A stretch of DNA of 50,255 nt from an uncultured Lachnospiraceae bacterium (GTDB lineage: Bacteria > Bacillota > Clostridia > Lachnospirales > Lachnospiraceae). A program made the position numbers and the translations under genes. The notes beneath the pieces are model-generated. The model searched no databases, was not told where the DNA came from, and worked only from the letters and a program-made list of their open reading frames with translations. The DNA lies in NCBI GenBank assembly GCA_947385425.1, contig CANDKY010000012.1, forward strand, positions 1 through 50,255, given 5' to 3'. Shown here piece after piece: positions 19,462 through 44,927 of the stretch (position 1 is its first letter; every line of letters begins with the position of its first letter).

Positions 19462-19842
19462 ATGAAAAAAATACTTATTTGGGGAACAGGCATAAAGGCA
19501 AGGAGGTTGTGTAATTATCTAGATTTTAATGAAGTTGAAATTCTTGGTTTTACAGACAATTCAGGTTTAACTGACATCAAGTTATGGGATGGATACAAAT
19601 TTATTCCGAAGAGCGAGGCATTAAAATTTGATTATGATTATATAGTGATTGCCAGCGGAGCATATTGCGAAATTACTGCACAGCTTATCGCTGAGAATAT
19701 AACTGAGAATAAAATAATCCAGGCAGATAATGTTCAGTTTATGATCCCAGATACACTATATTTTTTTAATGAAATAGAAACAAATGAAGAAAAGTACAAA
19801 ATATTCACTAATATTAATTTATATTCGTGTATTATCGTATAG
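19462..19842 (+). CDS. Stand-alone Rossmann-like module protein
   Basis: A 126-residue protein consisting of one Rossmann-like module. KILIWGTGIKARRLCNYL is the nucleotide-type loop, EILGFTDNS is the second strand with an acidic residue, and YDYIVIASGAYCEITAQL is the later strand and helix. The same layout is fused to many other proteins of this locus. It resembles the N-terminal nucleotide-sugar-binding part of PglD-like proteins and the C-terminal domain of some C-methyltransferases. It has no catalytic domain, so a binding or scaffolding role is possible. Confidence 0.7.
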   Translation: MKKILIWGTGIKARRLCNYLDFNEVEILGFTDNSGLTDIKLWDGYKFIPKSEALKFDYDYIVIASGAYCEITAQLIAENITENKIIQADNVQFMIPDTLYFFNEIETNEEKYKIFTNINLYSCIIV

Positions 19843-19851
19843 GGGGGTAGT

Positions 19852-21093
19852 ATGGATGCTATTAGAGTGCTGATTTGGACTCCAGGTTATATATCATATC
19901 TTACAGACCTGCTTAAGGTGATTGACGGAAAATATGGAATGAATTGTAAGGACAAATCAGAGTTTGGATTTGAAGCTGATTACACCAGTCAGAATGATTT
20001 TGACAGGATTGTAGAAGATTATAAACCTAATATTATTTTTTTATACAATGTGTCGAGTAAAAATCTATCGATCAAAATTCCGGATAATCTTAGCGTAATA
20101 ACTTATTGTGATCATTTTATGGAACAGTTTCTTATCCTAGGTAAAAATTATTTTCAACAGTTACCTAAAAATAATTTTTTGTATATACCGGTCTTGGATG
20201 TAGATAGAATAGATAGAGACAAGATATTAGATGATTGTAATATTAGAAAGAAGATATATTTTGCTCCATTTGTTGATGTATGGAAAGGCAATAAGTTGGC
20301 AAAAGACAAAGAATATGAGAAGAAATATGAATGTGATTTGTCTTTTATGGGCATGTATAAAAAGGTTGAGTATTATTATTGGTGCTATAATATTAATTCA
20401 TCGACTTTTCAAGGCAGGATTCTTATGCATTTTGTTAGTGAATTGGTGGCATTGGTAAGAAAGGAGATAAAACAGCGTGAGACAGCGAATCTAGATGGCA
20501 GTTGGGTACGTGAAAATGTTATAAATATGTATGAAAAGTTGAATGTTAAAAGATGTGTGAGAGATGAAAACAGTTTTATTGATAAATGGATAGATACAGT
20601 AATATTCAATATTATTCAACATGAATATGTAAATATTGTTATAGACTGGTTAATAGAGCGGGGATATAATTTAAAAATATATGGTAGTGGTTGGAATAAG
20701 ATTGATAATTATAAAAAGTATGCAATGGGTATGGTTGATGAAGGTTCAGATGACCTGCGGATGGCTTATCAATATAGTAAGATTAATATAGGAGCTAATT
20801 GCGGTATGGGAATACATAGAAGAGTTTGCGAGTGTATTAGAAATGGGAGTTTGTGTTTTCAGGCAGAGACAAAACCTGAGTATATGTTTTCAGATTACCG
20901 TCATTTTTTTAAAGATGGAAGAGATATTGTAGTATACAGGAATAAACAAGAGTTATATGAAAAAATAGATTACTATTTAACGCATGATGATGAAAGGAAG
21001 CAGATAATAAAAGAAGGAAAAAGGGTACTTGAACAAAAACTAGATACATCGGATATAGTGGTAAACGCGATAAAAACGCTATATGAAAGATGA
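19852..21093 (+). CDS. CgeB-like glycosyltransferase (GT4-type C-terminal domain)
   Basis: A 413-residue GT-B-type protein. The C-terminal 110 residues match the CgeB/Glyco_trans_1_2 type: INIGANCGMGIHRRVCECIR, then GSLCFQAETKPE and YEKIDYYLTHDDERKQIIKEG. The N-terminal half is a poorly conserved acceptor domain. It has no membrane segment, so it would act in the cytoplasm. It starts 9 bp after the stand-alone Rossmann module, GGGGGGTAG being the binding box. Acceptor and donor are unknown. Confidence 0.75.
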   Translation: MDAIRVLIWTPGYISYLTDLLKVIDGKYGMNCKDKSEFGFEADYTSQNDFDRIVEDYKPNIIFLYNVSSKNLSIKIPDNLSVITYCDHFMEQFLILGKNYFQQLPKNNFLYIPVLDVDRIDRDKILDDCNIRKKIYFAPFVDVWKGNKLAKDKEYEKKYECDLSFMGMYKKVEYYYWCYNINSSTFQGRILMHFVSELVALVRKEIKQRETANLDGSWVRENVINMYEKLNVKRCVRDENSFIDKWIDTVIFNIIQHEYVNIVIDWLIERGYNLKIYGSGWNKIDNYKKYAMGMVDEGSDDLRMAYQYSKINIGANCGMGIHRRVCECIRNGSLCFQAETKPEYMFSDYRHFFKDGRDIVVYRNKQELYEKIDYYLTHDDERKQIIKEGKRVLEQKLDTSDIVVNAIKTLYER

Positions 21094-21164
21094 TATAAAT
21101 GTACTTATTGAGCAAACTCATAAGTTATATTCATTAGTTATTAATTTGCAGAGGGAAAGCAATC

Positions 21165-22373
21165 ATGAATGATAATTCAAATTGTTTTATATGGAGTGAC
21201 AACTGGTATATAGATAATAATGAGGCATGGTTTGTTGACGGAGAACGGGATATATTATGTTGTCTGAATTTAAAGTCAAATACATGTGATTATGCAGTAA
21301 AAATACCTAATTCAAATTTAGATGAATTTCGGCTAAATTCGAGATGTATAAAATTTGAAAATGAAGTATTTTGTATGCCAGATAAAGGAGAAAGGATATG
21401 GGTTTATAATTTAAATGATAGATATTTTCAGCAAATTGATATAAAGAATCCTAATAAAGTAAGAATTTCAATAGTGGATTTCTGGGAATATGATAATAAG
21501 TTATTTGCGGTATCAATTGGTTTAAAACAAGTTATTGAGATTAATATAGATAAAAAGGTAATTGATAATTATTATGCACTTTGCGATACACCAGAAAAAC
21601 AAATAGCAAAGAGTATCAAAGTTGGAATGAATATATATTGTGTGTCTGCTGTTTCAAATCATATATATCAATTTGATTTGAAAATAAAAAAAAGTACAGT
21701 ATATACAATTCCGAAAGCAGAAGGAGGCTTTTATACAATAAGTTTTGATGGGTGTAAGTTTTGGCTAAGCGGATATCGTAAAGAAATATATATATGGGAT
21801 AAGGAAAATAATTCGACAAATATTCTTAGAGATTTTCCTAGACAATTTGGTATTTATAACTTTGCCAGAAATGAAAAATATATTTTAGATTGTGAAAGAA
21901 CAGTTTATGATACTCCTGCCTTTATAGAATCAAGAGTGGCAGGGAACTATATTTGGTTTATACCATTTCAAACGAATAAAATTATATATGTGGACAGAGT
22001 TACATTTCAAGTGAATGTTTTAGAAAATGAAGAAAATGAATCCATATCAAGTTTGTCGAGTTATTATTTGGCTCATAAATATTTAGTGCTATATATGGAG
22101 GATGATAGATATATTGGGCTCTTTTCTTTTAAGGATAATTCTGTGTTGGAGATTGATGCTATTAAAATGACTATAGTAAAGAAAGTTTATTCGTTTGGAC
22201 AAGAATATTTGAATACGTTTATGGCAGCATTAGAAAAGAATTTTAATGAAGTTAACTGGTTTCATAGAATAATTTTTCAAAAGATATTACTGGCAGCTTC
22301 AACTAGGGTTAACAGAAAAATGTCCAATGAAGTGGGAACTAGTATCTATAGTAAAATGATGTTAAATGGTTAA
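21165..22373 (+). CDS. Beta-propeller-like protein, function unknown
   Basis: A 402-residue protein without signal peptide or membrane segment. It consists of repeated units of about 45-50 residues with alternating hydrophobic strands (for example IWVYNLNDRYFQQIDI, LKQVIEINIDKKVIDNY, IYQFDLKIKKSTVYTI, IYIWDKENNSTNILRDF). This is the look of a WD/Kelch-like beta-propeller of perhaps six or seven blades. It lies between a glycosyltransferase and the WbpB-like dehydrogenase. It could be a cytoplasmic scaffold or glycan-binding factor. The composition is strongly AT-rich like its neighbours. Confidence 0.7.
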   Translation: MNDNSNCFIWSDNWYIDNNEAWFVDGERDILCCLNLKSNTCDYAVKIPNSNLDEFRLNSRCIKFENEVFCMPDKGERIWVYNLNDRYFQQIDIKNPNKVRISIVDFWEYDNKLFAVSIGLKQVIEINIDKKVIDNYYALCDTPEKQIAKSIKVGMNIYCVSAVSNHIYQFDLKIKKSTVYTIPKAEGGFYTISFDGCKFWLSGYRKEIYIWDKENNSTNILRDFPRQFGIYNFARNEKYILDCERTVYDTPAFIESRVAGNYIWFIPFQTNKIIYVDRVTFQVNVLENEENESISSLSSYYLAHKYLVLYMEDDRYIGLFSFKDNSVLEIDAIKMTIVKKVYSFGQEYLNTFMAALEKNFNEVNWFHRIIFQKILLAASTRVNRKMSNEVGTSIYSKMMLNG

Positions 22374-22468
22374 CTAGTTTTGCAATTATAGATTGAAAAT
22401 TTCTAATATATACATTGAGGCAGAAATTTTTGGATAAAAATGGTAGAAACTGAGAGGATAGTAAAGGG

Positions 22469-23539
22469 ATGAAGTATGCACTAATTGGCTGTGGGCGCAT
22501 TTCTCCAAATCATATTGTAGCAGCACAGAACAATGGGCTTGAACTTGCGGCGATATGTGATATTGAAATATCATGCATGAAAGATAAAGTGCTTAAGTTT
22601 AAACTAGGCAGTGGTGTAAAGCAGTATACAGACTATAAAGAAATGATTGATACAGAAAAGCCGGAACTTGTTGCAATCTGTACCGAAAGCGGAAAACATG
22701 CAGAGCATGCGTTATTTTGTATAGAACATGGCTGTAACTGTATTATAGAGAAACCAATTGCATTATCCATGGCAGATGCTGATGCAATTATTTCTGCATC
22801 CATAAGGTATCATGTAAAGGTCTGCGCATGTCATCAGAACAGATTTAACAAGTCAATCCAGATTATACGGGAAGCAATTGACATGAACCGCTTTGGAAGA
22901 TTGTTTTACGGCACAGCTCATATTAGATGGTGCAGAGATTATGAATATTACGACAGGGCTTCATGGAGAGGCACATGGGCACAGGATGGCGGTGCATTGA
23001 TGAATCAGTGTATTCATAATATTGATTTACTTAGATGGATGATGGGAAGCGAGATTGAAGAGGTAGTAGGAATGACGGACAGGCTTAACCATAATTACAT
23101 AGAAGCCGAGGATTTAGGAATTGCCCTGATAAGGTTTAAAAATGGAAGTTATGGAATTATTGAAGGAACAACGGACGTTTATCCCAAAAATCTGGAAGAG
23201 ACATTATATATATTTGGTGAGAAGGGAACTGTTAAGGCTGGCGGACAGTCCGTCAATGTGATAGAAGAGTGGAGATTTTCAGATATGCTGGATGATCCGG
23301 ATGAAGTAAAAGCAAGATTCCACGAGAATCCGCCTAATGTGTACGGTTATGGGCATACACCTTTGTATGCGGATGTAATCAATGCCATAAAACAGGACAG
23401 GCAGCCGTATGTAACTGCCATGGATGGAAGAAAGGCTCTGGAACTTGTACTGGCAATATATAAATCTGCAGCGGAAGGATGCTGTGTCACACTGCCGCTT
23501 AAAGATTGTGCAACGATGGACTTTAAAGGAAGATTTTGA
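22469..23539 (+). CDS. wbpB: UDP-GlcNAc(3-keto)A-type dehydrogenase, Gfo/Idh/MocA family
   Basis: A 356-residue oxidoreductase. ALIGCGRISPNH (4-15) binds NAD, and E94-K95-P96 is the family lysine motif. WRGTWAQDGGALMNQCIHNIDLLRWMMG is the strongly conserved signature of the WbpB/WlbA group, which oxidises C3 of UDP-N-acetylglucosaminuronic acid. The next two genes encode matching acetyltransferase and aminotransferase enzymes, and a 2-epimerase follows at 27836, so the pathway to a UDP-2,3-diacetamido uronic acid is nearly complete. The UDP-GlcNAc 6-dehydrogenase needed first is not clearly present. Confidence 0.9.
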   Translation: MKYALIGCGRISPNHIVAAQNNGLELAAICDIEISCMKDKVLKFKLGSGVKQYTDYKEMIDTEKPELVAICTESGKHAEHALFCIEHGCNCIIEKPIALSMADADAIISASIRYHVKVCACHQNRFNKSIQIIREAIDMNRFGRLFYGTAHIRWCRDYEYYDRASWRGTWAQDGGALMNQCIHNIDLLRWMMGSEIEEVVGMTDRLNHNYIEAEDLGIALIRFKNGSYGIIEGTTDVYPKNLEETLYIFGEKGTVKAGGQSVNVIEEWRFSDMLDDPDEVKARFHENPPNVYGYGHTPLYADVINAIKQDRQPYVTAMDGRKALELVLAIYKSAAEGCCVTLPLKDCATMDFKGRF

Positions 23540-23540
23540 G

Positions 23541-24038: not shown

Positions 24039-24072
24039 GGCCGGAGACTTTGTTAAATAAAGGAGTTCAGAT

Positions 24073-25194: not shown

Positions 25195-25210
25195 GCGGGA
25201 GAGATTATAT

Positions 25211-25930: not shown

Positions 25931-25943
25931 GAGGTGACAGGAT

Positions 25944-26648: not shown

Positions 26649-26658
26649 GGTAATAAAA

Positions 26659-26802: not shown

Positions 26803-26852
26803 AAAATATTACAATAAAATGATGTTATTATGAGAAGGAAAAGAAGACTGTT

Positions 26853-27800
26853 ATGGAAATATGGAAAGAATTTGATGAATTTGTAGACAAATTGTTTTAT
26901 TTTTCAAATGGAAAATGTACAGTGCTTTGGGGATATGGATTAAGCGGGCTGTTCATACATCACTTATTTTCGCGGTTTAACAGGAGAATAGAATATATTG
27001 TAGATGACAGCTCCATGAATCCTAAAGTTTCAATTATGAGATCGTGTGAGATAGAAAATATTACTCCGGAAACATGTGCAGTAATTTTGTCAGGAGAACA
27101 TGACACAGAGAAGGAAAAATTTCTGAAAGAGCGGAGATTTATGGAAAATGTTCATTTTATATATGCGAGAAAATATTTATATGAGAGTATAAACAGTCAA
27201 AATGTGTGGAAAAACATATCGTATTATGAATACCTGGAAAACAGATTCAATGTAGACATTGTGGAAAGAAAGTTTGTCGAAAAAATGGAGAATCCAAAGA
27301 AGGATGCATTAAATTATTCACCAGGAATGGGGTATCCTCTCATAGATGTATTGGATAATTTTATTTTTAAACCTGAAGATGCAGTATTTGACTTTGGCTG
27401 TGGTAAGGGAGGAGCTTTGCTCTTATTTCAAAAAAGCGGAGTTCAAAAGATAGCAGGAGTTGAGTATGATAAACCATTGTATAATATATTGTTGGATAAT
27501 TTTCAAAAAGTAAATGTATCTTCTGAAAATATAATAAACGGGGATGCGGCACTTATAAAGAATGAACTCGATGAATACAATTATTTTTTTATGTATAATC
27601 CGTTTCAGGGCGAGACATTCCGTCAGGTTATAGATAATATTGAGGAAAGCTGGCATAGGAAAAAAAGACGTATTACTTTTATTTATGCGGGGCCATATTG
27701 TCATCATCATGTGGTTGAACATGAAATATTCCGGTTGTCCAAACAGATTTGTACAGATTATTCTGTCCGAAATGTAAATATTTATACGATAGAAAAATGA
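26853..27800 (+). CDS. Rossmann module fused to a class I methyltransferase-like domain
   Basis: A 315-residue two-domain protein. Residues about 18-115 are the locus-wide Rossmann-like module (CTVLWGYGLSGLFIHHLF, then IEYIVDDS and CAVILSGEHD). Residues about 150-315 are a methyltransferase-like fold with AVFDFGCGKGGALLLF as motif I, AGVEYDKPLY after strand 2 and YNYFFMYNPFQG where the catalytic NPPF-like motif is expected. The target is unknown. A decayed copy of its N-terminus lies just upstream. Confidence 0.75.
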   Translation: MEIWKEFDEFVDKLFYFSNGKCTVLWGYGLSGLFIHHLFSRFNRRIEYIVDDSSMNPKVSIMRSCEIENITPETCAVILSGEHDTEKEKFLKERRFMENVHFIYARKYLYESINSQNVWKNISYYEYLENRFNVDIVERKFVEKMENPKKDALNYSPGMGYPLIDVLDNFIFKPEDAVFDFGCGKGGALLLFQKSGVQKIAGVEYDKPLYNILLDNFQKVNVSSENIINGDAALIKNELDEYNYFFMYNPFQGETFRQVIDNIEESWHRKKRRITFIYAGPYCHHHVVEHEIFRLSKQICTDYSVRNVNIYTIEK

Positions 27801-27835
27801 TTTAAAAGGTCTGGCTGAATTGTAGGGAGATTGAC

Positions 27836-28991: not shown

Positions 28992-29396
28992 ATGAAAAAT
29001 AGAGATGAGTTAATTGATATTTACGGATATGAGGCAGAAATTTTTAAAAAGAGTTATAACATGATGGGTAGATTATTAGATAAAAACTTTATAAAAAATG
29101 AAGTTGAGAAAAGAAAATTGTCTGATATGTATATTTATGGTGGAGGATTTCTGGGTATACAGTTTTATAGAGCAATTACCCCGTTTGTCAATGTATTATC
29201 AGTGGTAGATAAAAGTGGAAAGCTGTTGGTTGAGATGGATGATATACCAGTTATTAATATATCTGATTTCCGTAATCAATATGAAGATGAAACTGTAATT
29301 GTTACACCTTTAAAGTTTTATAGGGAAATATATCACGAATTAAAGGAATTTGTATTGAATAATAAAATTATTTTTTTAGAAGAATTCGGAGGATAA
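28992..29396 (+). CDS. Stand-alone Rossmann-like module protein
   Basis: A 134-residue protein made of a short helical lead (1-42) and one Rossmann-like module: DMYIYGGGFLGIQFYRAI (about 45-62), then VLSVVDKSG with the acidic residue, DIPVINISDF and TVIVTPLKFYREIYHELKEF. It has no catalytic domain and belongs with the modules at 19462 and 34971. It ends 2 bp before the next glycosyltransferase, with which it is surely co-translated. Confidence 0.68.
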   Translation: MKNRDELIDIYGYEAEIFKKSYNMMGRLLDKNFIKNEVEKRKLSDMYIYGGGFLGIQFYRAITPFVNVLSVVDKSGKLLVEMDDIPVINISDFRNQYEDETVIVTPLKFYREIYHELKEFVLNNKIIFLEEFGG

Positions 29397-30664: not shown

Positions 30665-31741
30665 ATGCAAAAAGATTTCATGGTAGATACATGGGGAGAT
30701 GTTAAAAAAATCACTGTAGGGAAAAAGGTGTTTCTATTCGGAGCAGGATATTGGGGACAAAAAATCTGGGAAAATATAGATAACTATGCCTCATCGTGGG
30801 ATGTAGCAGGATTTTTGGATAATGATATCAGTAAGCAAAATCAAAAGATTGGTAGACTTACAGTATTTTCTCCTGCTATATTGAATGACTATACTTTAGA
30901 CGAAGTGGTGGTTTTGATTTGCTGTATGACTACTGCTGAAATATCCAGGCAATTATATTCAATGGGAGTGAAAAATTATTATTCGGTGCATCATTTAAGT
31001 TTGCCTTCGGAATTGAGAACCACGTGTCAGCAGGATAACATAGATAACCAAGATGTTGAGTGGCTGCTGAACCGTGTGGAGGATGAGCGGTCTAGAGAAG
31101 TAGTAAGGAGTATTGTAGAAAAAAGAAAGACAGGATTTTTTGATTATACGGATTTGCGGGAAAATGGAAGCGAGTACTTTATAGATGATTTTTTTGACAA
31201 AGAGAATCAGGAGGTATTTGTAGACGGTGGGGCATATGATGGAGATACCATCGAAGAGTTTATTGAGTGGACAAAGAATAACTATAAGAAAATTTATTCT
31301 TTTGAACCACAAAAGGATAAAGCGGAAATAATAAGAAATAAACTTTGGAGATATGATGGGAAAGTAGAGTTATTTGAAAAGGGTTTATACGATTCCGCAA
31401 CAGAGATTGCCTTTTGTGATGGTAACGAAGTTTTATCAGGGAAAATTGGAGAAGAAGGGGCAAGTTCTAAAGTACATACCATAGATATTGATTCGGTAGT
31501 ATATGAAAAAGTGACTTTTATTAAGATGGATATAGAAGGAGCAGAGTTAAAGGCATTAGAAGGCGCTATACAGACAATTCAAAAAAATAAACCCAAACTT
31601 GCAATTTGTATTTATCATAAGCCGGAGGATATGTGGCAGATACCAAGATATATAGATTCATTGGTACCTGAATATAAGTTTTATATTCGTCATTTTGGTA
31701 TGAGATATGCAGGAACCATCTTGTATTGTAGTTTTAAGTGA
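30665..31741 (+). CDS. Rossmann module fused to FkbM family methyltransferase
   Basis: A 358-residue two-domain protein. Residues about 20-110 are the Rossmann-like module (KVFLFGAGYWGQKIWENI, then DVAGFLDNDI and EVVVLICCMTTAEISRQL). Residues about 180-358 are an FkbM-type methyltransferase with VFVDGGAYDGDTIEEF (184-199) and IKMDIEGAELKALEGA. FkbM enzymes O-methylate sugars and natural products. The N-terminal module is of the same kind as the separate proteins of the locus. GTGAGG precedes the ATG. Confidence 0.85.
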   Translation: MQKDFMVDTWGDVKKITVGKKVFLFGAGYWGQKIWENIDNYASSWDVAGFLDNDISKQNQKIGRLTVFSPAILNDYTLDEVVVLICCMTTAEISRQLYSMGVKNYYSVHHLSLPSELRTTCQQDNIDNQDVEWLLNRVEDERSREVVRSIVEKRKTGFFDYTDLRENGSEYFIDDFFDKENQEVFVDGGAYDGDTIEEFIEWTKNNYKKIYSFEPQKDKAEIIRNKLWRYDGKVELFEKGLYDSATEIAFCDGNEVLSGKIGEEGASSKVHTIDIDSVVYEKVTFIKMDIEGAELKALEGAIQTIQKNKPKLAICIYHKPEDMWQIPRYIDSLVPEYKFYIRHFGMRYAGTILYCSFK

Positions 31742-34970: not shown

Positions 34971-35447
34971 ATGAAAAAGGGAACAGTTGGGGTATTGTCA
35001 ATAGTAGCAGGAATAGCGGCTGGAGCCGGCGTAATAGGAAAAATGGCAGGGAATAGATTGAATAAGGCAGAAAAAATGTCTGAAAAGCATCTGGCTTTAT
35101 TTTTGATGATGAATCAATGGGTTAAAGTTAAGCAGGAGGGAGTCAGTTTGGCATCTTATTTTGAAAAAAATGGATACAAGCGCATTGCCATATATGGGAT
35201 GAGTTATGCAGGAGAAACCCTTGTAGATGAGTTAAGAGGATCAGGGGTGGAAATTGCATATAGTGTTGATAAAAGGGCAGATTCTTTATGCGCAGATTGG
35301 GATATTGTATCTGCAGATGATGAATTGGAAGAGGTAGATGCTGTGATAGTTACGGCAATTACTTTCTTTGATGAGATAGAAGAAAAGTTGAGTGAGAAAG
35401 TTGAATGCCCAATTATTTCGTTGGAGGATATCTTGTACGAGGTATGA
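34971..35447 (+). CDS. Membrane-anchored stand-alone Rossmann module protein
   Basis: A 158-residue protein. Residues 5-27 (TVGVLSIVAGIAAGAGVIGK) form one glycine- and alanine-rich hydrophobic helix, a likely membrane anchor and the only one predicted from the recombinase-like gene to the end of the locus. Residues about 58-158 are the Rossmann-like module: RIAIYGMSYAGETLVDEL, VEIAYSVDKRA, VDAVIVTAITFFDEIEEKL and the end ISLEDILYEV. Its last 40 residues match the tail of the glycosyltransferase at 36749. It could tether the module, or partners binding it, to the membrane. Confidence 0.72.
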   Translation: MKKGTVGVLSIVAGIAAGAGVIGKMAGNRLNKAEKMSEKHLALFLMMNQWVKVKQEGVSLASYFEKNGYKRIAIYGMSYAGETLVDELRGSGVEIAYSVDKRADSLCADWDIVSADDELEEVDAVIVTAITFFDEIEEKLSEKVECPIISLEDILYEV

Positions 35448-35530
35448 TATGAAAAAGGCAGTTATAATTAGGCAGATTCTTTTGAGAGTATGTATCAAAA
35501 ACAATCTTTACTTTAGGAGATGAGATTGAT

Positions 35531-36652
35531 TTGGAAAAGAAACTGATTATCCGGTGTGCCGGAAAGACTGGCAGAAAAGCTGCAAGAGAATATGGGAAAG
35601 AGAACATAGCATTTTTTTGTGATGATTATGTCACGGACAGGGAGATAGAAGGCATACCTGTGATTAATACAGAGCAATTAAAAAAAATCCATATGCCATA
35701 TTGTGTCGTTGTGGCTTTGGAGCGTACGGAGGAAAGGATTGAAATGGCGGAACTGCTCCATAAGGATGGCATTCCATGTACAGGTTATGGATATCATGAA
35801 AAATATGGGATACCTAGCCGTACGATCCATATTTATGGGGACGCAGAACATCTGGCCTATGATTTTAACGACAGCTATTTGTTTGCCGAAATTGACCATA
35901 TACGCGGGGATATTACTATGGATATGTACCGCGAGATGTTCCGCATATACAGGGATGATTTTACAGGTAAAAAAATAGATATTCATATATGTATTGGTGA
36001 TACGCTCTATGAAGCTTATGAGTATGCAAAGGTATGCCAGTGGAAATGTGTCCATGCATATTCTGGGCATTATGTGTATGAGGATATCATTGTTCCGATA
36101 CCGGATTACCGTTCGTGTTTTAATGAGGAAAAATATTTTTATAAGGACGCAACGCCTGCACAGTGCAAGGATGCGGCAAGGAAGCCATATTCTGATGGGC
36201 GCGCATACTGGATCGGCTCTTTTTTGGGATTGGATAGCAGATTGAATCTATGGGCTTTGTCGAAAAAATATCCTGGACATTTACTGATAGAACATTCAGC
36301 AAAAACGCGCCGGAGTATGCCTGAACAGGCAGCGTTTAAATATCTGATTGATGTAAGGGGTTTCGGGTGGACAGACAGGGTAAAAACCTTAATGATGTTA
36401 GGGCGTCCCCTTTTATTGGCAGACCGGCCAAATAAGGAATGGTATATGGATTTTATGGAGCCAATGGTACATTATGTTCCTGTCAAAGAAGATCTGTCTG
36501 ACCTGATACAAAAAATAGACATGCTTAATGCAGACAAGAATTTATATGAAAGCATTGTGGAAAACCAGAAAGAGTTTGTTGCCAGATACCTTTCCTGTGA
36601 AGCAATATTATCCTATTTGCGTGATGTGACACTAAAATATGATGTGTATTGA
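35531..36652 (+). CDS. Rossmann-like module fused to GT90/CAP10-like glycosyltransferase
   Basis: A 373-residue protein. Residues 1-95 are a divergent Rossmann-like module (KLIIRCAGKTGRKAAREYG, FFCDDYVTDREIEGIPVINT, CVVVALERTEERIEMAELL). The remainder matches the CAP10/GT90 fold: KYLIDVRGFGWTDRVKTLMM, GRPLLLADRPNKEWY and MVHYVPVKEDLSDLIQKI. GT90 members include xylosyl- and glucosyltransferases, and the locus encodes a UDP-xylose synthase, so xylose transfer is a reasonable guess. The start is a TTG with AGGAG about 11 bp upstream; no in-frame ATG fits. Confidence 0.8.
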   Translation: MEKKLIIRCAGKTGRKAAREYGKENIAFFCDDYVTDREIEGIPVINTEQLKKIHMPYCVVVALERTEERIEMAELLHKDGIPCTGYGYHEKYGIPSRTIHIYGDAEHLAYDFNDSYLFAEIDHIRGDITMDMYREMFRIYRDDFTGKKIDIHICIGDTLYEAYEYAKVCQWKCVHAYSGHYVYEDIIVPIPDYRSCFNEEKYFYKDATPAQCKDAARKPYSDGRAYWIGSFLGLDSRLNLWALSKKYPGHLLIEHSAKTRRSMPEQAAFKYLIDVRGFGWTDRVKTLMMLGRPLLLADRPNKEWYMDFMEPMVHYVPVKEDLSDLIQKIDMLNADKNLYESIVENQKEFVARYLSCEAILSYLRDVTLKYDVY

Positions 36653-36748
36653 ACTGTGGCCGCATATTTTTCAAAAACGGTTCGGATTCTAAAAGCACAG
36701 TAGTTACTTTTTGCTCTAATGTGGGGATTAGTAAAGGATTTTTAATTT

Positions 36749-37861
36749 ATGAAAAACAGATATTTAATTCTGCTCCCGGAATACACGCTTGGCGGCCTTG
36801 AGGCACAAATGCGACAGATAATTTATTCTCTTGAGGAGAAACATATACTGGCGGATGTCTGTATCCTGAATACATTGAAAAAGGGAAAAAACTCTCTTCT
36901 TGATTGTGACCGGAAAAGACTTCGGTTTGTGGATTTTTTTGAACTTCATATGTACCATCGGTCAGAGTATCAGGAAAGGGAAAGCATCAGAGAATATGTA
37001 ATTAAGAATATGGAACGAATGTATCGTGTTGTTTTGATTTTTAATCAGACATATACTCCATTGATTCCTTTTTTCAGAGAAAATGGTATTTCAACTGTGT
37101 ATTCGGAACGCTCGGATGGAAACAGGACATGTAATGATGAAATATGCAGGTTAAGCGTAAAGGAATGTGATATTTTGTGTGCGAATTCTTTTTGTGCGGC
37201 AAGGAAAATGGAGTTGGAATTTGCCAGAAAGATCCGTGTGATACCAAACGGAAAGGAATATAGGGAGAGGTTAGGGTATACCAGAAAGAAGCAGATTAAG
37301 AATATTCTTGTACCATGCAGGATTGCGCCAATAAAAAACCTGGGAATTGTTGTAGATATGGCTTTTGCGCATGCTGATAGAAGTTTTGTCGTGCATTTTG
37401 TGGGTGGGAAGGATTATGTGAATTATGCAAAGAGTCTTGAAGATAAGGTGAAAAATTATGGCATAGGAGACAAGGTGTTTTTTACTGGTTATAAAGAATT
37501 TATGGAAGAAGAGTATTTCTGGGCGGATTTGGTAATCCTGCCATCATTTATTGAAGGGGCATCTAATGTTGTGTTGGAAGCATATCAGTATGGGCGTCCT
37601 ATAATTGTTTCAGATATTGAGTCGGAAAGGGAACTTGTCACAGATGACAGGCTTAGGTTTTCAACAGAAAGCGCAGAAGAACTCTTTAAGTGTATTGAAT
37701 ATGTGGAGAAGTTGTCCGATGCGAAATTTGACTGGGAGGTAGATGTGATAGTAGTTACTGCAATTTCATACTTTAATGCGGTCAAGGATGAGTTAAAAAG
37801 AAAGTGGGACGGTGACATTATATCTTTAGAGGATGTCATATATGAGGAACAAGCCAGATGA
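36749..37861 (+). CDS. GT4 glycosyltransferase with a chimeric Rossmann-module tail
   Basis: A 370-residue protein. Residues 1 to about 325 are a GT4 enzyme: LLPEYTLGGLEAQMRQII, NILVPCRIAPIKNLGIVVDM, and EGASNVVLEAYQYGRPII as the donor motif. At residue 330 (37736) the sequence changes into the last part of a Rossmann module, EVDVIVVTAISYFNAVKDEL then ISLEDVIYE, closely matching the end of the 34971 protein. The module's own glycine loop is missing. It looks like a recombination or deletion joint that fused two genes in frame and removed the normal C-terminal helix of the transferase. Activity may be affected. Confidence 0.82.
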   Translation: MKNRYLILLPEYTLGGLEAQMRQIIYSLEEKHILADVCILNTLKKGKNSLLDCDRKRLRFVDFFELHMYHRSEYQERESIREYVIKNMERMYRVVLIFNQTYTPLIPFFRENGISTVYSERSDGNRTCNDEICRLSVKECDILCANSFCAARKMELEFARKIRVIPNGKEYRERLGYTRKKQIKNILVPCRIAPIKNLGIVVDMAFAHADRSFVVHFVGGKDYVNYAKSLEDKVKNYGIGDKVFFTGYKEFMEEEYFWADLVILPSFIEGASNVVLEAYQYGRPIIVSDIESERELVTDDRLRFSTESAEELFKCIEYVEKLSDAKFDWEVDVIVVTAISYFNAVKDELKRKWDGDIISLEDVIYEEQAR

Positions 37862-37945
37862 ATGCAAAACTGGGTATCATGCACTTCAATATAATGTAAC
37901 AGGTATTACAACAGTTATTTAGTCAGTAGGGAAAGGAATGAACCA

Positions 37946-39031
37946 GTGGTTTCGATAATTATAAACAATTATAATTATGCCCGTTATCTGCATGAGGCAA
38001 TTGAGTCTGTCCTGTTTCAGACATACACGGACTGGGAGCTGGTTATGGTAGACGACGGGTCAGAGGATGAATCAGTCAAGGTAATGGAAGCGTATGTGAA
38101 AAGATATCCGGAGAAGATGCGCTGTATAAAAAAGGATAATGGCGGCCAGGCTTCGTGTTTTAATGCTGGATTTGCCAAATCAAAGGGGGAGATCATTGCT
38201 TTTCTTGACAGTGATGATTTCTGGTTCCCTAATAAGCTGGAGCGTATTGTGAAGGCTCATGAAGAACACAGTTTTGTTGCCCATGAAAAGCATTTCTCGG
38301 ATGGAACCAGGCAGAATATTTATACGGACATTAATTCTGAAAGGTCGCGTATTCTGAGGACATACGGTGTGATGGACAGTTATGACATTACGACATCAAC
38401 AATGTCCTTGAAAAGAGAGTTGGCAGAAAAAATATTTCCGATGCCGGAAGAGAGTTTCCGGATATGTGCGGATCACTATGTGAACTTTGCCGCGACCTAT
38501 TATGTGGATGTTTGCTACTTGCATGAAAAACTCTCATATTACCGCATCCATGGAAAAAACGGTTTTGTTACACAATCTTCAGAAATGAAGTCAACCTTTG
38601 CAAACCAGTCGCTTGACTATGCCTGTGTAGAATATTTGAATGAGAAACTGAAAAGCGAAGGAGAAGATACCGTACCGCACAGGTCATTCCGGCAAACAGA
38701 TGCGTTATGGAAAGATATCGGTGAGGGTTTTGAGATACAAAGCGGAAAACGCTATCTTGTCTATGGGACAGGGAATGATTCGTACCGTTTCAGCCGTTCT
38801 ATTATAGAACGGGAAGGAATAATAGTGGGCTACTGCGATTCCAACCCTGTGAAACATGGAAAGATACATCATGCTAAGCTGGTCTGGAAGCCGGATGATC
38901 TTATAGGGCGCCGGAAAGATTACGATTTGATTATCATTGCTTCAATACAATACTATCCGGAAATTGTAAAAAAACTGGAAAGTTTGGGGCTGAGCAGGGG
39001 CAGGGATTTTATATTCACACCTGTTTTCTAG
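37946..39031 (+). CDS. GT2 glycosyltransferase with C-terminal Rossmann module
   Basis: A 361-residue protein. Residues 1-230 are a GT-A family 2 transferase: VSIIINNYNYARYLHEAIES, MVDDGSEDES, and AFLDSDDFWFPNKL with the metal-binding DSDD. Residues 267-361 form a complete Rossmann-like module (KRYLVYGTGNDSYRFSRSII, IVGYCDSNPVKHG, YDLIIIASIQYYPEIVKKL). The start is GTG with AAAGGA 9 bp upstream; the nearby ATG at 37938 is out of frame. Donor unknown. Confidence 0.88.
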   Translation: MVSIIINNYNYARYLHEAIESVLFQTYTDWELVMVDDGSEDESVKVMEAYVKRYPEKMRCIKKDNGGQASCFNAGFAKSKGEIIAFLDSDDFWFPNKLERIVKAHEEHSFVAHEKHFSDGTRQNIYTDINSERSRILRTYGVMDSYDITTSTMSLKRELAEKIFPMPEESFRICADHYVNFAATYYVDVCYLHEKLSYYRIHGKNGFVTQSSEMKSTFANQSLDYACVEYLNEKLKSEGEDTVPHRSFRQTDALWKDIGEGFEIQSGKRYLVYGTGNDSYRFSRSIIEREGIIVGYCDSNPVKHGKIHHAKLVWKPDDLIGRRKDYDLIIIASIQYYPEIVKKLESLGLSRGRDFIFTPVF

Positions 39032-39205
39032 GTGATTACACATGACTTTTGCGAGGAAGGGGAAAATTTTGGTTCTGGTTTATGTCGGGCATGTTTAGCA
39101 AAGGCCAAAACAGAGTGCAGACTGGCAATGCAGATAAAGATTCAGGCAGGTTAAATGCACAAGTTATTTATTGACAGATATTAACCATAAGGAGGGACAG
39201 AAACA

Positions 39206-40987
39206 ATGAGATCACCAAAAGATATGCGGATAATTCAGATAGAACTTACCAATGCGTGTGTACATACATGTTCTAATTGTTCGCGGATGTGCGGACATCA
39301 TGAGCATCCGTTTTTTATGGATTTCCAGACGTTTAAGCGCGCCGTTGATTCGATGGAAGGTTATGAAGGCACGGTAGGGATGATGGGCGGCGAACCGACG
39401 CTGCATCCGGAGTTTGAACGTTTTGCCGAGTACCTTTCATCCAAATATCCTAAAAAGGGCGGCGAACACAACCTGATTGCGCCGACGAATACATTTATGA
39501 GGAACCTGAAACTGGAGGAACGCAGCAGGATAGAGGCCTATGAGGAGGAAGCAGGGACGAATGAGAGGATAAAGGGGCCGGGATTGTGGTCGTCCCTTGT
39601 ATCGAGTTATGCGAAATATTACGAGACGATTCAGGATGTATTTATTTACCAATGTGTGAATGACCATACGGAGAGTTCGTTCCATCAGCCGGTAATGGTT
39701 ACAAGAAAAGATTTGGGGATTTCCGATGAAGAATGGTATCCCCTGAGGGACAAGTGTTGGATGCAGATGAACTGGAGTGCATCCATAACTCCAAAGGGGG
39801 CATTTTTCTGTGAGGTTGCGGCAGCTTTAGATATGCTGTTTGATGGGCCGGGCGGCTGGCCCATTGAACCGGGATGGTGGAAACGCACTCCCGATGAGTT
39901 TGGCGATCAGTTGCATTGGTGTGAATGGTGCGGGCTTGCGCTTGAGACAAGATCCAGGGATGCAAATGAGGGGGCGGATGATATATCCCCGTCATTTTTG
40001 GAGCGGCTTAAGAAATTGAACAGTCCTAAATTGGAGAAGGGACAGTTTCATGTTTACTATAAGGATGAGGCGGGAAATGATTCTCTGGTTCGACATAATA
40101 ATTATCAGGACAATGATTTTAACCGTCTGGGTAAGCATAACCGCAGTATTTATCCCAAGGGGTTTGTACTTGTCATTTTGCCCGAGGTTAAAGGAATGGA
40201 TGAAGAGCTGATAAAAAGGACATTGCGTTCCGCATCCGGTCAGTTTAAGAAAATTTACATTTTTTCCAATCATATCGGCGGCGTTTGTGAAACGGAGTAT
40301 GCAGAGATTCTGCCTGAGGAATCAACTTTTGGAGATGCCATGAACCGTGTGAACAGTAAAGCAGACGGGATGTATATTGTCTGTGCGTCGCAGGGGACAG
40401 AATTTTCTGGGGGTTTCGTGGAAACTATGTCGGGTTATGCCATTAATCCGGGGACAGTCCATGTCTGCAGGAGTGGTAAAAACGAGCTTGCACTCATAAA
40501 GTCAGAGGAAAAGGATGGGCTGATGTATCTGTATCATCCAAAAGCGCATACGCTTAGAGATTATGGATTTGACAGAATCGCAGGATGTAAGACAGCAGAG
40601 GAATTCATTTCCCTGTGGGATGAGAAAAAGACAGTCACGTTTGATAATGCGATGTTAACACAAAATACGATTGAGTCTGCAATACATATCGAGGGCGGGA
40701 AGGACTATGTGGTATATGGAGCAGGCAGAGTATCTCCTGTGGCAGTCAGGATAATAGAGAAAGCAGGCGGCAGGGTCGTGGCTCTGTGCGATTCGGATTC
40801 CGGTAAGTGGGGGACGGAGACAGGCGGAAAGAAAGTAATTTCACCGGAGGACCTTGTAACTTCAAGAGGGATGTATGACAAAGTGGTTATTGGGTCATCG
40901 CGTTATTACCGTGAGATCAGGGACAGGCTTCGTTCTTTGGGGATTGAGGAAGAGCGTATATCAGCGCCGTTACTTTTGGAAGAATAG
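39206..40987 (+). CDS. Radical SAM protein with middle domain and C-terminal Rossmann module (first of tandem pair)
   Basis: A 593-residue multi-domain protein. C18-x3-C22-x2-C25 (NACVHTCSNCSRMC) binds the SAM cluster, GMMGGEPTLHPEFERF is the SAM-binding motif, and FFCEVAAALDMLFDGPGGW with LHWCEWCG suggests an auxiliary cluster. Residues about 325-490 are an alpha/beta region (KGFVLVILPEVKG, ADGMYIVCASQGTEFSGGFV) reminiscent of a degenerate GT-A domain. Residues 497-593 are the Rossmann-like module (KDYVVYGAGRVSPVAVRII, VALCDSDSGKWG). Function unknown. AGGAGG precedes the ATG. The 174-bp gap before it holds nothing recognised. Confidence 0.82.
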   Translation: MRSPKDMRIIQIELTNACVHTCSNCSRMCGHHEHPFFMDFQTFKRAVDSMEGYEGTVGMMGGEPTLHPEFERFAEYLSSKYPKKGGEHNLIAPTNTFMRNLKLEERSRIEAYEEEAGTNERIKGPGLWSSLVSSYAKYYETIQDVFIYQCVNDHTESSFHQPVMVTRKDLGISDEEWYPLRDKCWMQMNWSASITPKGAFFCEVAAALDMLFDGPGGWPIEPGWWKRTPDEFGDQLHWCEWCGLALETRSRDANEGADDISPSFLERLKKLNSPKLEKGQFHVYYKDEAGNDSLVRHNNYQDNDFNRLGKHNRSIYPKGFVLVILPEVKGMDEELIKRTLRSASGQFKKIYIFSNHIGGVCETEYAEILPEESTFGDAMNRVNSKADGMYIVCASQGTEFSGGFVETMSGYAINPGTVHVCRSGKNELALIKSEEKDGLMYLYHPKAHTLRDYGFDRIAGCKTAEEFISLWDEKKTVTFDNAMLTQNTIESAIHIEGGKDYVVYGAGRVSPVAVRIIEKAGGRVVALCDSDSGKWGTETGGKKVISPEDLVTSRGMYDKVVIGSSRYYREIRDRLRSLGIEEERISAPLLLEE

Positions 40988-41003
40988 GGGATGGTGGAAA
41001 TTT

Positions 41004-42620
41004 ATGCGTTCAGTTGCTGATATGGAATTTATACAAATTGACATTACAAATGCCTGCAATATGCGATGCTCTAATTGCACGCGTTTCTGCGGAAATCATG
41101 AAAAGACATTTTTTATGGATTTTGACACCTTTAAGCGCGCAGTGGATTCATTGGATGGATTTGACGGTGTGACGGGTATCATCGGAGGCGAGCCTACGCT
41201 TCATCCGGAATTTGAGAGATTTGCGCGGTATATGCAGAAGAAGTTCGGCAGGCCCTGCGGATGGGACACATTATTATATCCTCAGCATGATTTCATCCAT
41301 GCGGTCCATCAGAGGGAGTTTGAAAGCGAGGTACTGCGTAAAAGGCCGGACGGCAGTCATTTCCTGAAGAAACATGGAGCCGGGCTTTGGTCGAACATGA
41401 GCGGTACTTACCGCAAGTATTATGAGGTGATACAGGATACTTTTTCTGTGGAATATTTAAATGATCACATGAATCCGTCTTACCATCAGCCAGGGCTTTT
41501 TGCCAGGAAGGATTTAGGCATCCCGGATGACGAGTGGATAAAGCTGCGCGATAATTGTTGGATTCAAAATACATGGAGCGCGACAATTACGCCGAAGGGG
41601 GCGTTCTTCTGTGAGGTTGCGGGAGCGTTGGATATGCTTTTTGACGGGCCGGGTGGGTGGAGGATAGAACCTGGATGGTGGAAACGTAAGCCTGAAGATT
41701 TTACCGATCAGCTTCATTGGTGTGAATTGTGCGGTTTTGCGTTGGACAATACATTTACGCGTGATTCCCAGGAAGAGACGGATGACCTTTCACCGACTTT
41801 GTATGAGATGATCAGGAAAGTAAACAGCCCTAAATACCGCTCCGGAAAAATTAATCCGGTGAAAATAGAAAACGGTGTAATCGACAAGGGGTCTAAGCCG
41901 GAAGACAAAAGGTTCATTGTCGGCGACCGGTATATTGAAAAGTATGAGGATCGGTTTAACCGTAACAACTCTGTGCTTTTCGAGATGAATTTTGTGGAAT
42001 TGGCTTTTCCTGCCGATGAAATGTTTGGACGGTGGCTGAACAGGATTTTGAAGAGGAAAGAGGAATGGCTGCTTCTGAAGTTGTCTGATTGCGCGGATAC
42101 CGGAGAGATCCGGAATATGATAGGGAAGCGCATTTTCCATCCGGGTGTATTACTGTTGGGGGAAAATGTGGCTTTATTGTGCAGGGATGCGCTTTCTGTC
42201 AGGAAGATTGGTTTTGACCGTATTGCCCATATGGCTTCTTTTGACGAGTTGGAAAAGGCATGGGAGCAGGATAAGGTGATACGGTTTGCCGATATCGACG
42301 AGAAGGTCAGTCTGAAGCGGCAGTCAATGAACGCAGGCGGAAAATATGCTGTCTGGGGCGCAGGAATGTTAGGGGAATTTTTCATTGAAACGGTGCAATT
42401 GTCCGGCGGGACGGTGACTGTAGTAGTAGATAAGGAGCCGGGTAAAATCGGTATGGGATTCCATGGGGTAACTATTGAAAGGCCGGAAGTATTGGCAGGG
42501 CAGGGAGAATTGTTTGATTATCTGCTCATTGCCCATCATACGAGATTTGAAGAGATAGAGAGGGAAGCTCTGGAGATGGGTGTGCCGGAGGAAAAGATAG
42601 TGCTTCCTTATGAGGTTTAG
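41004..42620 (+). CDS. Radical SAM protein with C-terminal Rossmann module (second of tandem pair)
   Basis: A 538-residue paralogue of the preceding gene. The cluster cysteines are again C18, C22, C25 and C29 (NACNMRCSNCTRFC); GIIGGEPTLHPEFERFARYM, FFCEVAGALDMLFDGPGGW and LHWCELCG are shared. The middle region is shorter. Residues 445-538 are a complete Rossmann-like module (KYAVWGAGMLGEFFIETV, VVVDKEPGKIG, YLLIAHHTRFEEIEREAL). The ATG at 41004 is chosen because homology to the first paralogue begins there; the open frame runs back to 40875 only by overlapping the previous gene. GGTGG lies upstream. Confidence 0.82.
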   Translation: MRSVADMEFIQIDITNACNMRCSNCTRFCGNHEKTFFMDFDTFKRAVDSLDGFDGVTGIIGGEPTLHPEFERFARYMQKKFGRPCGWDTLLYPQHDFIHAVHQREFESEVLRKRPDGSHFLKKHGAGLWSNMSGTYRKYYEVIQDTFSVEYLNDHMNPSYHQPGLFARKDLGIPDDEWIKLRDNCWIQNTWSATITPKGAFFCEVAGALDMLFDGPGGWRIEPGWWKRKPEDFTDQLHWCELCGFALDNTFTRDSQEETDDLSPTLYEMIRKVNSPKYRSGKINPVKIENGVIDKGSKPEDKRFIVGDRYIEKYEDRFNRNNSVLFEMNFVELAFPADEMFGRWLNRILKRKEEWLLLKLSDCADTGEIRNMIGKRIFHPGVLLLGENVALLCRDALSVRKIGFDRIAHMASFDELEKAWEQDKVIRFADIDEKVSLKRQSMNAGGKYAVWGAGMLGEFFIETVQLSGGTVTVVVDKEPGKIGMGFHGVTIERPEVLAGQGELFDYLLIAHHTRFEEIEREALEMGVPEEKIVLPYEV

Positions 42621-42623
42621 AAG

Positions 42624-43826
42624 ATGATATCAGTTATTGTGCCTGTATACAATTCGGAATGTTTCCTGCCGCAGTGCCTGGAGTCGCTGATCCGGCAATC
42701 ATATCGGGATTTTGAAGTTATATGTGTAGACGATGGCTCTGCGGACGGTTCCCTTGATGTACTGAAAAGATATGCTTTATTGGATGGCCGCATCAGGGTA
42801 TATACGAAAGAAAATGAGGGGAAGGGGGCGGCGCCGGCAAGGAATGCAGGGCTTGAAAGGGCTTCCGGCGATTATGTTTGTTTTCTTGACAGCGATGACT
42901 TCTTTGATCCTGATATGTTGGAGGTTGTGCTTCAAAAGGCTATGGGTACGGATGCTGACGTGGTGGTTTGGAAAGGGAAATTTTTTGACCACGAAAAGCA
43001 GACGGTTGCAGGGGAGTGCCCGCATCCTGATTTATATTATGCACCGGATTTTGAACCGTTTTCATGGAAGGACTGTCCGGAGTATATATTTGATATCGGA
43101 GACTTTTATGCCTGGAACAAACTATTCAGACGGGAGCTTTTGATGCGGAATAAGCTCCGGTTTGAACCGATTCCGATTTCTGATGATCAGTATATTTCCG
43201 TGATTGGCATGGTTTTGGCGGAGCGGATTGCTGTGGTGGACAGGGCGTTTGTGAATTACAGGATTCATACCGGCGCAAGCCAGTGTGACTCCAGGGCAAA
43301 ATATCCCGAGGCAGCTTACCGGGGGACATTTTCAATTGTGGGAAAACTGAAAGAAATGGGGATTTATGAAGCTGTAAAGCCTAGTTTTGTGAATATTTCC
43401 CTGCGTCTTATGAGGGAGTATTTCGATATAATGCCAGATTATGCATCCATGAAGAAATTATATGATACCTATTGGGAGGAAGTGTTTCCTAATATCGGGG
43501 CTTTGGACCTGACGAAGGATTATTTCCATGACCCCAGGCTCGGGGAGTGGTATGAGCTTATCCGTGACAACAGATTGGAAGAGATACTTTTTAAAGCTGC
43601 ACGGGCCGGAGGCGGGACCATGACTACGGCTCCTTTGCGTTTTCAGGTACCATATGGTGAGATTCCTAAAGGGGGCCGTCTGGTTCTGGTAGGGAAAGGA
43701 TTGGCGGGACGTTACTGGTATTCGCAGTTAATCCTTTCGCAGTATTGTGATGCGGTTTGCTGGGTTGGGGCGGAAGAGGAGATACCGGAAGGGTTTTCTT
43801 ACGATGCTGTTGTAAAAGCGAGGTAG
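42624..43826 (+). CDS. GT2 glycosyltransferase with truncated C-terminal Rossmann module
   Basis: A 400-residue protein. Residues 1-240 are a family 2 GT-A transferase: ISVIVPVYNSECFLPQCLES, CVDDGSADGS, CFLDSDDFFDPDML. Residues about 350-400 begin a Rossmann module (GRLVLVGKGLAGRYWYSQL, CDAVCWVGAEEE) but end after about 50 residues with YDAVVKAR, roughly half the usual length. The missing half could be an internal deletion or a natural short form. It starts 3 bp after the radical SAM gene and ends 3 bp before a gene that begins with a Rossmann module. Confidence 0.88.
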   Translation: MISVIVPVYNSECFLPQCLESLIRQSYRDFEVICVDDGSADGSLDVLKRYALLDGRIRVYTKENEGKGAAPARNAGLERASGDYVCFLDSDDFFDPDMLEVVLQKAMGTDADVVVWKGKFFDHEKQTVAGECPHPDLYYAPDFEPFSWKDCPEYIFDIGDFYAWNKLFRRELLMRNKLRFEPIPISDDQYISVIGMVLAERIAVVDRAFVNYRIHTGASQCDSRAKYPEAAYRGTFSIVGKLKEMGIYEAVKPSFVNISLRLMREYFDIMPDYASMKKLYDTYWEEVFPNIGALDLTKDYFHDPRLGEWYELIRDNRLEEILFKAARAGGGTMTTAPLRFQVPYGEIPKGGRLVLVGKGLAGRYWYSQLILSQYCDAVCWVGAEEEIPEGFSYDAVVKAR

Positions 43827-43829
43827 GAT

Positions 43830-44927
43830 ATGGATATTTATATTTTTGGGGCAAAAGCTACGGCAGCAGGGTTATACAGGGCATTGGCGGTATTGGAGCC
43901 GGAAAAGAAAATAAAGGGCTTTCTGGTGTCAGACATGAAGGGAAATCCTCATGATATATGGAATTGCCCGGTCATGCTTCTTGATAATGTTTCCGGTATG
44001 TTTTCGGATAACCGGAAAAAAGATGTACTTATATATGTGGCAGTCCCGGAACTGATACATAAGGAAATAAGGGAACTGTTGGGGGAGCATGGATTTACAA
44101 ATCTTAAAATGCTTGATTCCCGGACGGAAGCAGGTATTATGGAGCGGTATTTTCAGAAGGACGGGCAGTTTTTATCTGTTCATTCCCTGCCATTGGCCGG
44201 AGACATATCAGTGATACCGAAACTGACAATTTATGCTGTGTCATTTTATAAGGACAAGCCATTGAATAATCCGCCTGAGTTTCCGGTATATGTCAAAAGG
44301 CTGTATCTGGGGTGTGATAGGGCGGTGGAACGGGGAGTGAATATATCCGGCAAAGCGGATTTTTATGACAACACCGGCGATAACATTTCATCGAAGAATC
44401 CGAATCGGTGTGAGATGACAGCGCACTACTGGATTTGGAAGAACCGGTTGGATACGGATGATGAGTATGTAGGCATATGTCATTACCGCAGGACTCTGGA
44501 TCTGTCATTGGATGATTTGAAACGGATAAAATCAAATGATGTGGATGTGGTACTTCCGTTTCCTATGATCCATTATCCGGATAGCCGGGTCCAGCATACA
44601 TGGTATGTATCGGAGGAAGACTGGGAGCTGATGGTCAGAGTTGTGGGAGAATTATATCCGGATTATGAGCCGGTGCTCGATAAAATTTTTGATGAACCAT
44701 TTTTTTATAATTACAATATGATACTGGCAAAAAAGCAAGTGTTTGCGGATTATTGTGCATGGCTGTATCCGATACTGGACAGGATCGAAGAATTGTCAAA
44801 ACCTAAAGGGACAGAACGTGAAGACAGGTACACGGCATATATGAGTGAAAGTCTGACAACATTATATTTTATGGTACACAAAGATGACTTGAAGATATAT
44901 CACACAGGGAGAATTCTTTGTACGTGA
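43830..44927 (+). CDS. N-terminal Rossmann module fused to DUF4422 glycosyltransferase-like domain
   Basis: A 365-residue protein. Residues 1 to about 105 are a Rossmann-like module (MDIYIFGAKATAAGLYRAL, KIKGFLVSDMKG, KDVLIYVAVPELIHKEI). Residues about 125-365 match DUF4422, a capsule-locus domain thought to be a glycosyltransferase: DEYVGICHYRRTLDLS is its hallmark, followed by FYNYNMILAKKQVFADYCAW. Hydrophobic strands but no membrane segment. Donor unknown. Confidence 0.85.
   Translation: MDIYIFGAKATAAGLYRALAVLEPEKKIKGFLVSDMKGNPHDIWNCPVMLLDNVSGMFSDNRKKDVLIYVAVPELIHKEIRELLGEHGFTNLKMLDSRTEAGIMERYFQKDGQFLSVHSLPLAGDISVIPKLTIYAVSFYKDKPLNNPPEFPVYVKRLYLGCDRAVERGVNISGKADFYDNTGDNISSKNPNRCEMTAHYWIWKNRLDTDDEYVGICHYRRTLDLSLDDLKRIKSNDVDVVLPFPMIHYPDSRVQHTWYVSEEDWELMVRVVGELYPDYEPVLDKIFDEPFFYNYNMILAKKQVFADYCAWLYPILDRIEELSKPKGTEREDRYTAYMSESLTTLYFMVHKDDLKIYHTGRILCT

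Follow-up and report, generated by a model that had tools for sequence, protein, structure and literature searches.

A Rossmann-type accessory module shared by unrelated enzymes in a class of bacterial glycan loci

The domain of unknown function (DUF; PF13727) of the WbaP-type large phosphoglycosyl transferases and the N-terminal domains of the PglF-like dehydratases are Rossmann-like accessory domains that occur on unrelated glycan enzymes. According to the WbaP report (PMC10942596), the WbaP domain dimerizes and is stabilized by UMP, UDP, and UTP, the enzyme is inhibited by UMP, and the authors refer to a one-size-fits-all regulation, with the same domain on dehydratases. For EpsZ, another large transferase, a regulator protein is proposed to aid dimer formation on the basis of proximity labeling, heterologous expression, and modeling (PMC12802240). 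In this study, we describe a similar module in a 50,255-nucleotide stretch of DNA from an uncultured Lachnospiraceae bacterium (contig CANDKY010000012.1; the whole stretch is called the window), where it recurs on enzymes of different chemistry and in small stand-alone proteins. The module, of approximately 90 residues, is a Rossmann-type accessory domain of the same kind as PglD_N, C2185-like_N, and the WbaP DUF. The superfamily is already known; no description of its use as a common tag across a class of loci was found among the listed titles and abstract openings of the open-licence PubMed Central literature.

The module profile reaches WbaP (E = 2.5e-4), VioB (3.6e-8), and the structure 3nkl, which is named as a UDP-D-quinovosamine 4-dehydrogenase (2.7e-10). 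Whereas the WbaP DUF is described on two kinds of enzyme and goes with a four-helix membrane bundle, the module is found on many kinds of enzyme and goes with a one-helix membrane protein, the hub, encoded by open reading frame (ORF) 34971 (window ORFs are named by position). PF02397, the catalytic domain that accompanies the four-helix bundle in WbaP-type enzymes, has seven places in the same genome (contigs C149, C2, C17, C77, C7, and C13), and the contigs concerned hold no module at E ≤ 0.001. The genome may thus contain two distinct kinds of glycan locus; since the assembly is fragmented, however, this separation of contigs is no proof of separate loci.

The PglD_N domain (PF17836) of the NeuD, PglD, and VioB acetyltransferases has the glycine loop and the Asp after strand 2 in common with the module. 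Of 72 module sequences, 23 match PF17836 at E ≤ 0.1 (best, 1.7e-5), and 11 match the C-terminal domain of C-methyltransferases (PF08484; TcaB9, D-mycarose 3-C-methyltransferase) at the same threshold, in agreement with the relatives that the initial annotation had named. In the twelve window proteins, PF17836 has no match at E ≤ 1 and, unlike in PglD-type proteins, no acetyltransferase (hexapeptide) domain is matched; PF08484 has no match in the genome at E ≤ 0.001, and ORF 41004 scores 11.7 bits against its cutoff of 23.5. A Pfam search of the window modules returned subthreshold C2185-like_N (PF22674; structure 2g6t) matches on three proteins, in addition to a single match of PF08484 at E = 0.23; in NCBIfam, NeuD and Rex alone were matched, both below threshold. 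The whole window proteins stay below the C2185-like_N cutoff of 27 bits (23.6 for ORF 19462 and 24.9 for ORF 41004), whereas a fragment (C12:42513-42602) in the six-frame search reaches 28 bits, and residues 1 to 98 of 2g6t have the same fold as the module. The DNA-binding domain of Rex, an NAD(H)-sensing protein, is not matched by Pfam on the twelve window proteins.

The initial annotation had proposed that one pattern recurs in twelve window segments, and this recurrence is real. We searched the 167 window ORFs with a profile of 680 module rows that contains no window rows and from which a Rex row was removed; the rows were originally gathered by a profile seeded with window segments, so that its independence is partial. 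Eleven of the twelve segments rank above all other window ORFs, the first unlisted ORF is a UDP-glucose dehydrogenase at E = 0.34, below which no further member was found, and the same profile, with default filters, reported zero matches among 7100 shuffled ORFs. The twelve segments comprise nine firm full modules (E ≤ 9e-10), one weak module (ORF 26853), and two half-modules (ORFs 36749 and 42624). In a stricter leave-one-out test, in which the profile was seeded by the remaining window segments and the second-round training sets contain a Rex-like match from contig C3, eight segments were clear in the second round (19462, 28992, 30665, 34971, 35531, 37946, 39206, and 41004; 35531 reached only E = 0.045 in the first), 43830 reached 0.004 and 26853 reached 0.08, and the 36749 tail and 42624 were undetected. 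Pairwise BLASTP among the segments, run with no composition correction, related 37946 to 39206 (1e-18), 39206 to 41004 (8e-14), the tails of 34971 and 36749 (1e-11), 19462 to 37946 (9e-6), and 34971 to 41004 (2e-4).

All copies lie on the forward strand, and E values in this paragraph are those of the window-free profile unless noted otherwise. The module forms the bulk of a stand-alone 126-residue protein (ORF 19462; 19462..19719, E = 4.3e-17) and is preceded by an N-terminal extension in a stand-alone 134-residue protein (ORF 28992; 29121..29372, 1.8e-14) that resembles a 142-residue protein on contig C1 of the same genome. The hub (ORF 34971-35447) combines a predicted membrane segment at residues 5 to 23 (34983..35039, mean Kyte-Doolittle value of 1.99) with a module at 35169..35399 (3.8e-20). 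N-terminal copies precede an FkbM methyltransferase (ORF 30665; 30722..30979, 1.3e-16; PF05050, 2.1e-15), a domain resembling glycosyltransferase (GT) family 90 (ORF 35531; 35537..35776, 9e-10; PF05686, 9.2e-17), and a DUF4422 domain (ORF 43830; 43833..44111, 9.8e-12; PF14393, 2.5e-40). C-terminal copies follow a GT2 (ORF 37946; 38744..38998, 1.8e-16) and two radical SAM proteins, ORF 39206 (40697..40960, 4.3e-19), whose module is 41% identical to that of ORF 37946 over 90 residues, and ORF 41004 (42339..42602, 1.1e-13), for which the longest ORF starts at 40875. The two radical SAM proteins (39206-42620) adjoin each other and are alike, and in neither of them does Pfam match the stretch that separates the radical SAM domain from the module. 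The copy N-terminal to the class I methyltransferase domain of ORF 26853 (26913..27146) is weak (0.0019), with a single other relative by phmmer (0.03). The half-module that ends the GT4 of ORF 36749 (37736..37846) is C-terminal: it matches the last approximately 37 residues of hub proteins (phmmer, best 5.8e-11; profile, 0.036 at residues 321 to 351) and is 69% identical in DNA to 34971 over 113 nucleotides. That of the GT2 of ORF 42624 (43638..43778) is N-terminal; the last 71 residues resemble the N-terminal half of the modules carried by other GT2s (E = 3.6e-8 for the best match, a complete module) and are visible pairwise only, with no match in either the window-free or the leave-one-out profile search. 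The half length of 42624 and the tail fragment of 36749 agree with the initial annotation, and its list of carriers stands for GT2, GT90-like, FkbM, DUF4422, and radical SAM proteins, all with firm full copies, while the methyltransferase copy is weak and the GT4 copy is a half.

The fold was predicted for two proteins, ORFs 34971 and 37946. In the AlphaFold model of 34971 (mean predicted local distance difference test [pLDDT] score of 82; predicted template modeling [pTM] score of 0.72), a long helix at residues 15 to 55 precedes a Rossmann-like part at residues 59 to 158, and residues 1 to 18 score below 50. The elements at residues 269 to 346 of 37946 follow the strand and helix order of the hub as far as the last strand, which was modeled with low confidence in 37946. 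Among the VIA-align matches listed, the fold neighbors are 2g6t, Rex, and 3nkl, and the predicted fold is Rossmann-like. The glycine loop (YGxGxxG) is kept in 96% of the modules, and the ribose-binding Asp after strand 2 is kept in 77%.

We tentatively favor, at somewhat less than even confidence, the view that the module is a chemistry-blind accessory domain that senses nucleotides and pairs with other copies, the hub and a role as compatibility tag being included. The basis that is observed consists of the common sequence, the loop motif, the fold as predicted for two copies, the carrier pattern, and the absence from the counted sugar-nucleotide makers; from these we infer nucleotide binding and the pairing of copies, for which the WbaP domain, a dimer that responds to uridine nucleotides, is the strongest precedent. 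Each copy would keep a nucleotide pocket and pair with other copies, so that the sugar-adding and tailoring enzymes of one pathway would associate via their modules and would answer one nucleotide signal, e.g., a uridine nucleotide that the pathway consumes or sets free. In some Lachnospiraceae, the hub would draw the module-bearing set to the membrane, and loci would be assembled from enzymes already tagged.

The module is not confined to the window. In the genome of origin (4.42 Mb, 198 contigs), a ten-segment profile gave 43 matches at E ≤ 0.001, of which 10 are the query rows and 32 lie on seven further contigs (C21, 8; C15, 7; C1, 5; C19, 5; C26, 3; C95, 3; and C140, 1); the remaining match, on contig C3, looks like Rex. 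The carriers there include, by Pfam, GT2, TupA-like ATP-grasp, DltD-like, and citrate-lyase-ligase proteins and, by searches with window seeds, proteins similar to FkbM and DUF4422. Module matches occur in 13 of 15 other genomes of the genus, and at least five modules, which we call an array, occur in 32 of 150 genomes of a family sample and in 16 of 249 of a phylum sample (counted by eye); high counts per genome are lower bounds, with at most 34 scored candidates in the family sample and 20 in the phylum sample. The baseline is about one to three matches (median of 2 in hub-less genomes), presumably Rex and dehydratases of approximately 630 residues, judging from frame lengths. Related loci were taken as the best 80 of 134 found with the 34971 family, mostly from records named Lachnospiraceae, and this selection by hub biases toward module-rich loci. 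An iterated profile collected 691 module proteins from these 80 loci, the loci of the same genome, and the window. In the 80 loci, the module is present on 631 of 1402 called genes, from which 7 module ORFs are excluded (median share of 0.47, range of 0.05 to 0.83). The 697 module domains are N-terminal (298), C-terminal (224), in proteins of less than 190 residues (139), or internal (36). In one module-rich locus (L041), a citrate-lyase-ligase-type domain carries a C-terminal module (9052-10359). In viral contigs, the hub query found no relative (29 pattern matches, 0 confirmed). A class of loci uses the module, which is not peculiar to one odd locus: the segments are significantly alike by profile, with matches far beyond the window, and the spread that the initial annotation found unusual is real, but special to that class rather than to this locus alone. 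A link to flagellin glycosylation was also considered and was dropped, because none of the contigs that hold the seven flagellin places of the genome has a module at E ≤ 0.001.

The carriers were counted by searching the 1402 genes with window-gene seeds. The module is present on 94 of approximately 144 GT2, 22 of 64 GT4, 40 of 42 FkbM, and 20 of 22 DUF4422 genes, and on none of the SDR (0/32), UDP-glucose dehydrogenase (0/9), DegT aminotransferase (0/25), WecB (0/3), GLF (0/2), Gfo/Idh (0/1), and LbH (0/1) genes. Pooled, 179 of 277 transfer and tailoring genes carry the module against 0 of 73 sugar-nucleotide genes (Fisher P = 8e-28, kinship uncorrected). Outside the pools, the methyltransferase 26853 seed found one gene, with the module, and the GT90 and radical SAM (39206) seeds found no relative among the 1402 genes. 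Among a random 110 of 509 fusions, 50 Pfam models matched at 1e-4, including GT2, FkbM, GT4, DUF4422, RgpF, GT-D, CDP-glycerol glycerophosphotransferase, and WcbI; 110 genes without the module (≥130 residues), drawn at random, matched 85 models, which include epimerases, IspD, and LicD as well as GT2, GT4, and methyltransferases (10 each). Since genes of the latter classes can lack the module, its presence on the transfer side is a trend rather than a rule.

These counts bear on the alternative that each module holds the NDP-sugar of its own enzyme, as in the PglD and VioB acetyltransferases. The N-terminal domain of Pcryo_0637, a PglD relative, is described as a UDP platform that places Asp40 and Ser11 at the ribose and holds the uracil with Asp41 (PMC8040287); VioB is among the top profile matches, and 49% of the hub class have Ser in place of the second glycine of the loop. 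On the other hand, the absence from all 73 sugar-nucleotide genes speaks against a plain substrate-holding role, particularly as glycosyltransferases with donor sites of their own carry the module, and the residues that would read the uracil are mostly missing, as described below. We consider this alternative unlikely.

A second alternative is a pure docking tag, in which ligand-free modules bind the hub or each other to form a membrane-bound assembly line. The initial annotation had regarded 34971 as a membrane anchor, which agrees with its family: among 54 homologues, the best 19-residue segment reaches a Kyte-Doolittle value of at least 1.6 in 45 and is uncharged in 51. The hub family has 12 invariant columns over these sequences and a mean column identity of 63%, compared with 22% for a spread of modules, the hub set having been chosen as the top matches to a single query. 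Of the 150 family genomes, 16 encode members at E ≤ 1e-12, and, with hub copies subtracted, at least five modules are present in 13 of the 16 compared with 17 of the 134 hub-less genomes (Fisher P = 2.5e-8, kinship uncorrected). Moreover, 34 longer proteins have a hub-type module, and four of these examined with Pfam are GT2, GT4, PIG-L, and WbsX proteins. The hub accompanies arrays, yet it is dispensable, since arrays occur in those 17 hub-less genomes and since 12 of 14 array stretches checked, from eleven genomes of which most were chosen as hub-less, lack a long hub match; the genomes of two of these 12 stretches (G127 and G302) encode a hub-type protein at another place. The anchor is accordingly not the general organizer that had been suggested. 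A docking tag would also have no need to keep the glycine loop and the ribose Asp, and we regard it as rather unlikely.

Gene order and fusions are relevant to how the loci form. In proteins with two modules, a GT2 is linked to DUF4422 or to a methyltransferase by the adjoining modules. In locus L075, one 797-residue protein (17182-19575) has the order GT2-module-module-DUF4422, and in the window (42624-44927) a GT2 with a half-module and a module-DUF4422 protein are encoded in this order by separate genes, 3 bases apart. Such back-to-back fusions fit pairing, and plain gene fusion can also explain them. The reading of C-then-N gene pairs as split tandems was rejected, because N-then-C neighbors are enriched as well (67 versus 49 expected by comparison with 76 versus 49 for C-then-N). 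Multiplication of the module within a locus was likewise discarded as the principal route, since the closest relative of a module lies in its own locus in 16 of 563 cases (7 expected). The position of the module is nearly fixed per tested enzyme family and, together with the rarity of local copying, this suggests that the loci are built from enzymes already bearing the module.

The same two observations suit a third alternative, that each family took up a domain of the PglD_N kind in the distant past and that such families simply accumulate in glycan loci, with no common role of the module; a relative in the FkbM structure 2py6 (E = 0.0028) and the half-modules of 42624 and 36749, which suggest that decay is possible, point in the same direction. 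Within the genome of origin, however, full modules are present on 6 of 8 GT2s on module-rich contigs, the half-module of 42624 being among the 8, compared with 0 of 29 elsewhere (37 places found with one profile; Fisher P = 1.2e-5), and the kept motif and the 139 module domains in small proteins are also contrary to mere inheritance, which we judge improbable.

Several points weigh against nucleotide sensing and pairing as well. The PglD_N Asp-Asp pair for ribose and uracil is not kept as such: the second position is mostly Asn, Ser, Lys, Arg, or Thr, and Val replaces the ribose Asp in 88% of DUF4422-linked and 28% of GT2-linked modules, which makes a single ligand common to all copies unlikely; these class-wise figures cover named classes, "other" being a mixed class of 344 of the 691 proteins. 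The nucleotide-sugar binding put forward in the initial annotation came from relatives and is weakened by the same replacements. The WbaP domain is destabilized by UDP-Gal (PMC10942596). In the same loci, 98 of the 277 transfer-side genes are without the module, as are, outside the pools, relatives of methyltransferase 31768 (0/5), WbqC (0/2), and a polysaccharide-deacetylase-like gene (0/1). The back-to-back fusions could come from chance read-through, both neighbor orders being enriched, and the AlphaFold model of 37946 (pTM of 0.71) leaves the arrangement of GT2 and module open.

Elsewhere in the window, genes at 7158-14286 encode a SIS isomerase, an SDR, a cytidylyltransferase-plus-PfkB protein, two radical SAM proteins, and a transketolase split in two genes, a set that looks like the synthesis of an unusual (heptose-like) sugar. 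A resolvase-type recombinase (5779-6417) and an alpha-L-fucosidase (3970-4995) lie at the left edge.

How the enzymes of one glycan pathway are coordinated, and how flux is shared over a scarce lipid carrier, is poorly understood. It is possible, though doubtful, that the loci represent plug-compatible glycan assembly, in which unrelated enzymes are recruited via a common pairing and sensing module, with a hub scaffold in part of the Lachnospiraceae, and are swapped like the dockerin-bearing enzymes of cellulosomes, but inside the cell. A single small module that is present on dozens of enzymes and absent from the counted sugar-nucleotide makers and the other GT2s of the genome offers an experimental handle in the form of a domain, a pocket, and a hub, and many gut-bacterial proteins that consist of a glycosyltransferase plus an unknown domain would become members of one recognizable system.

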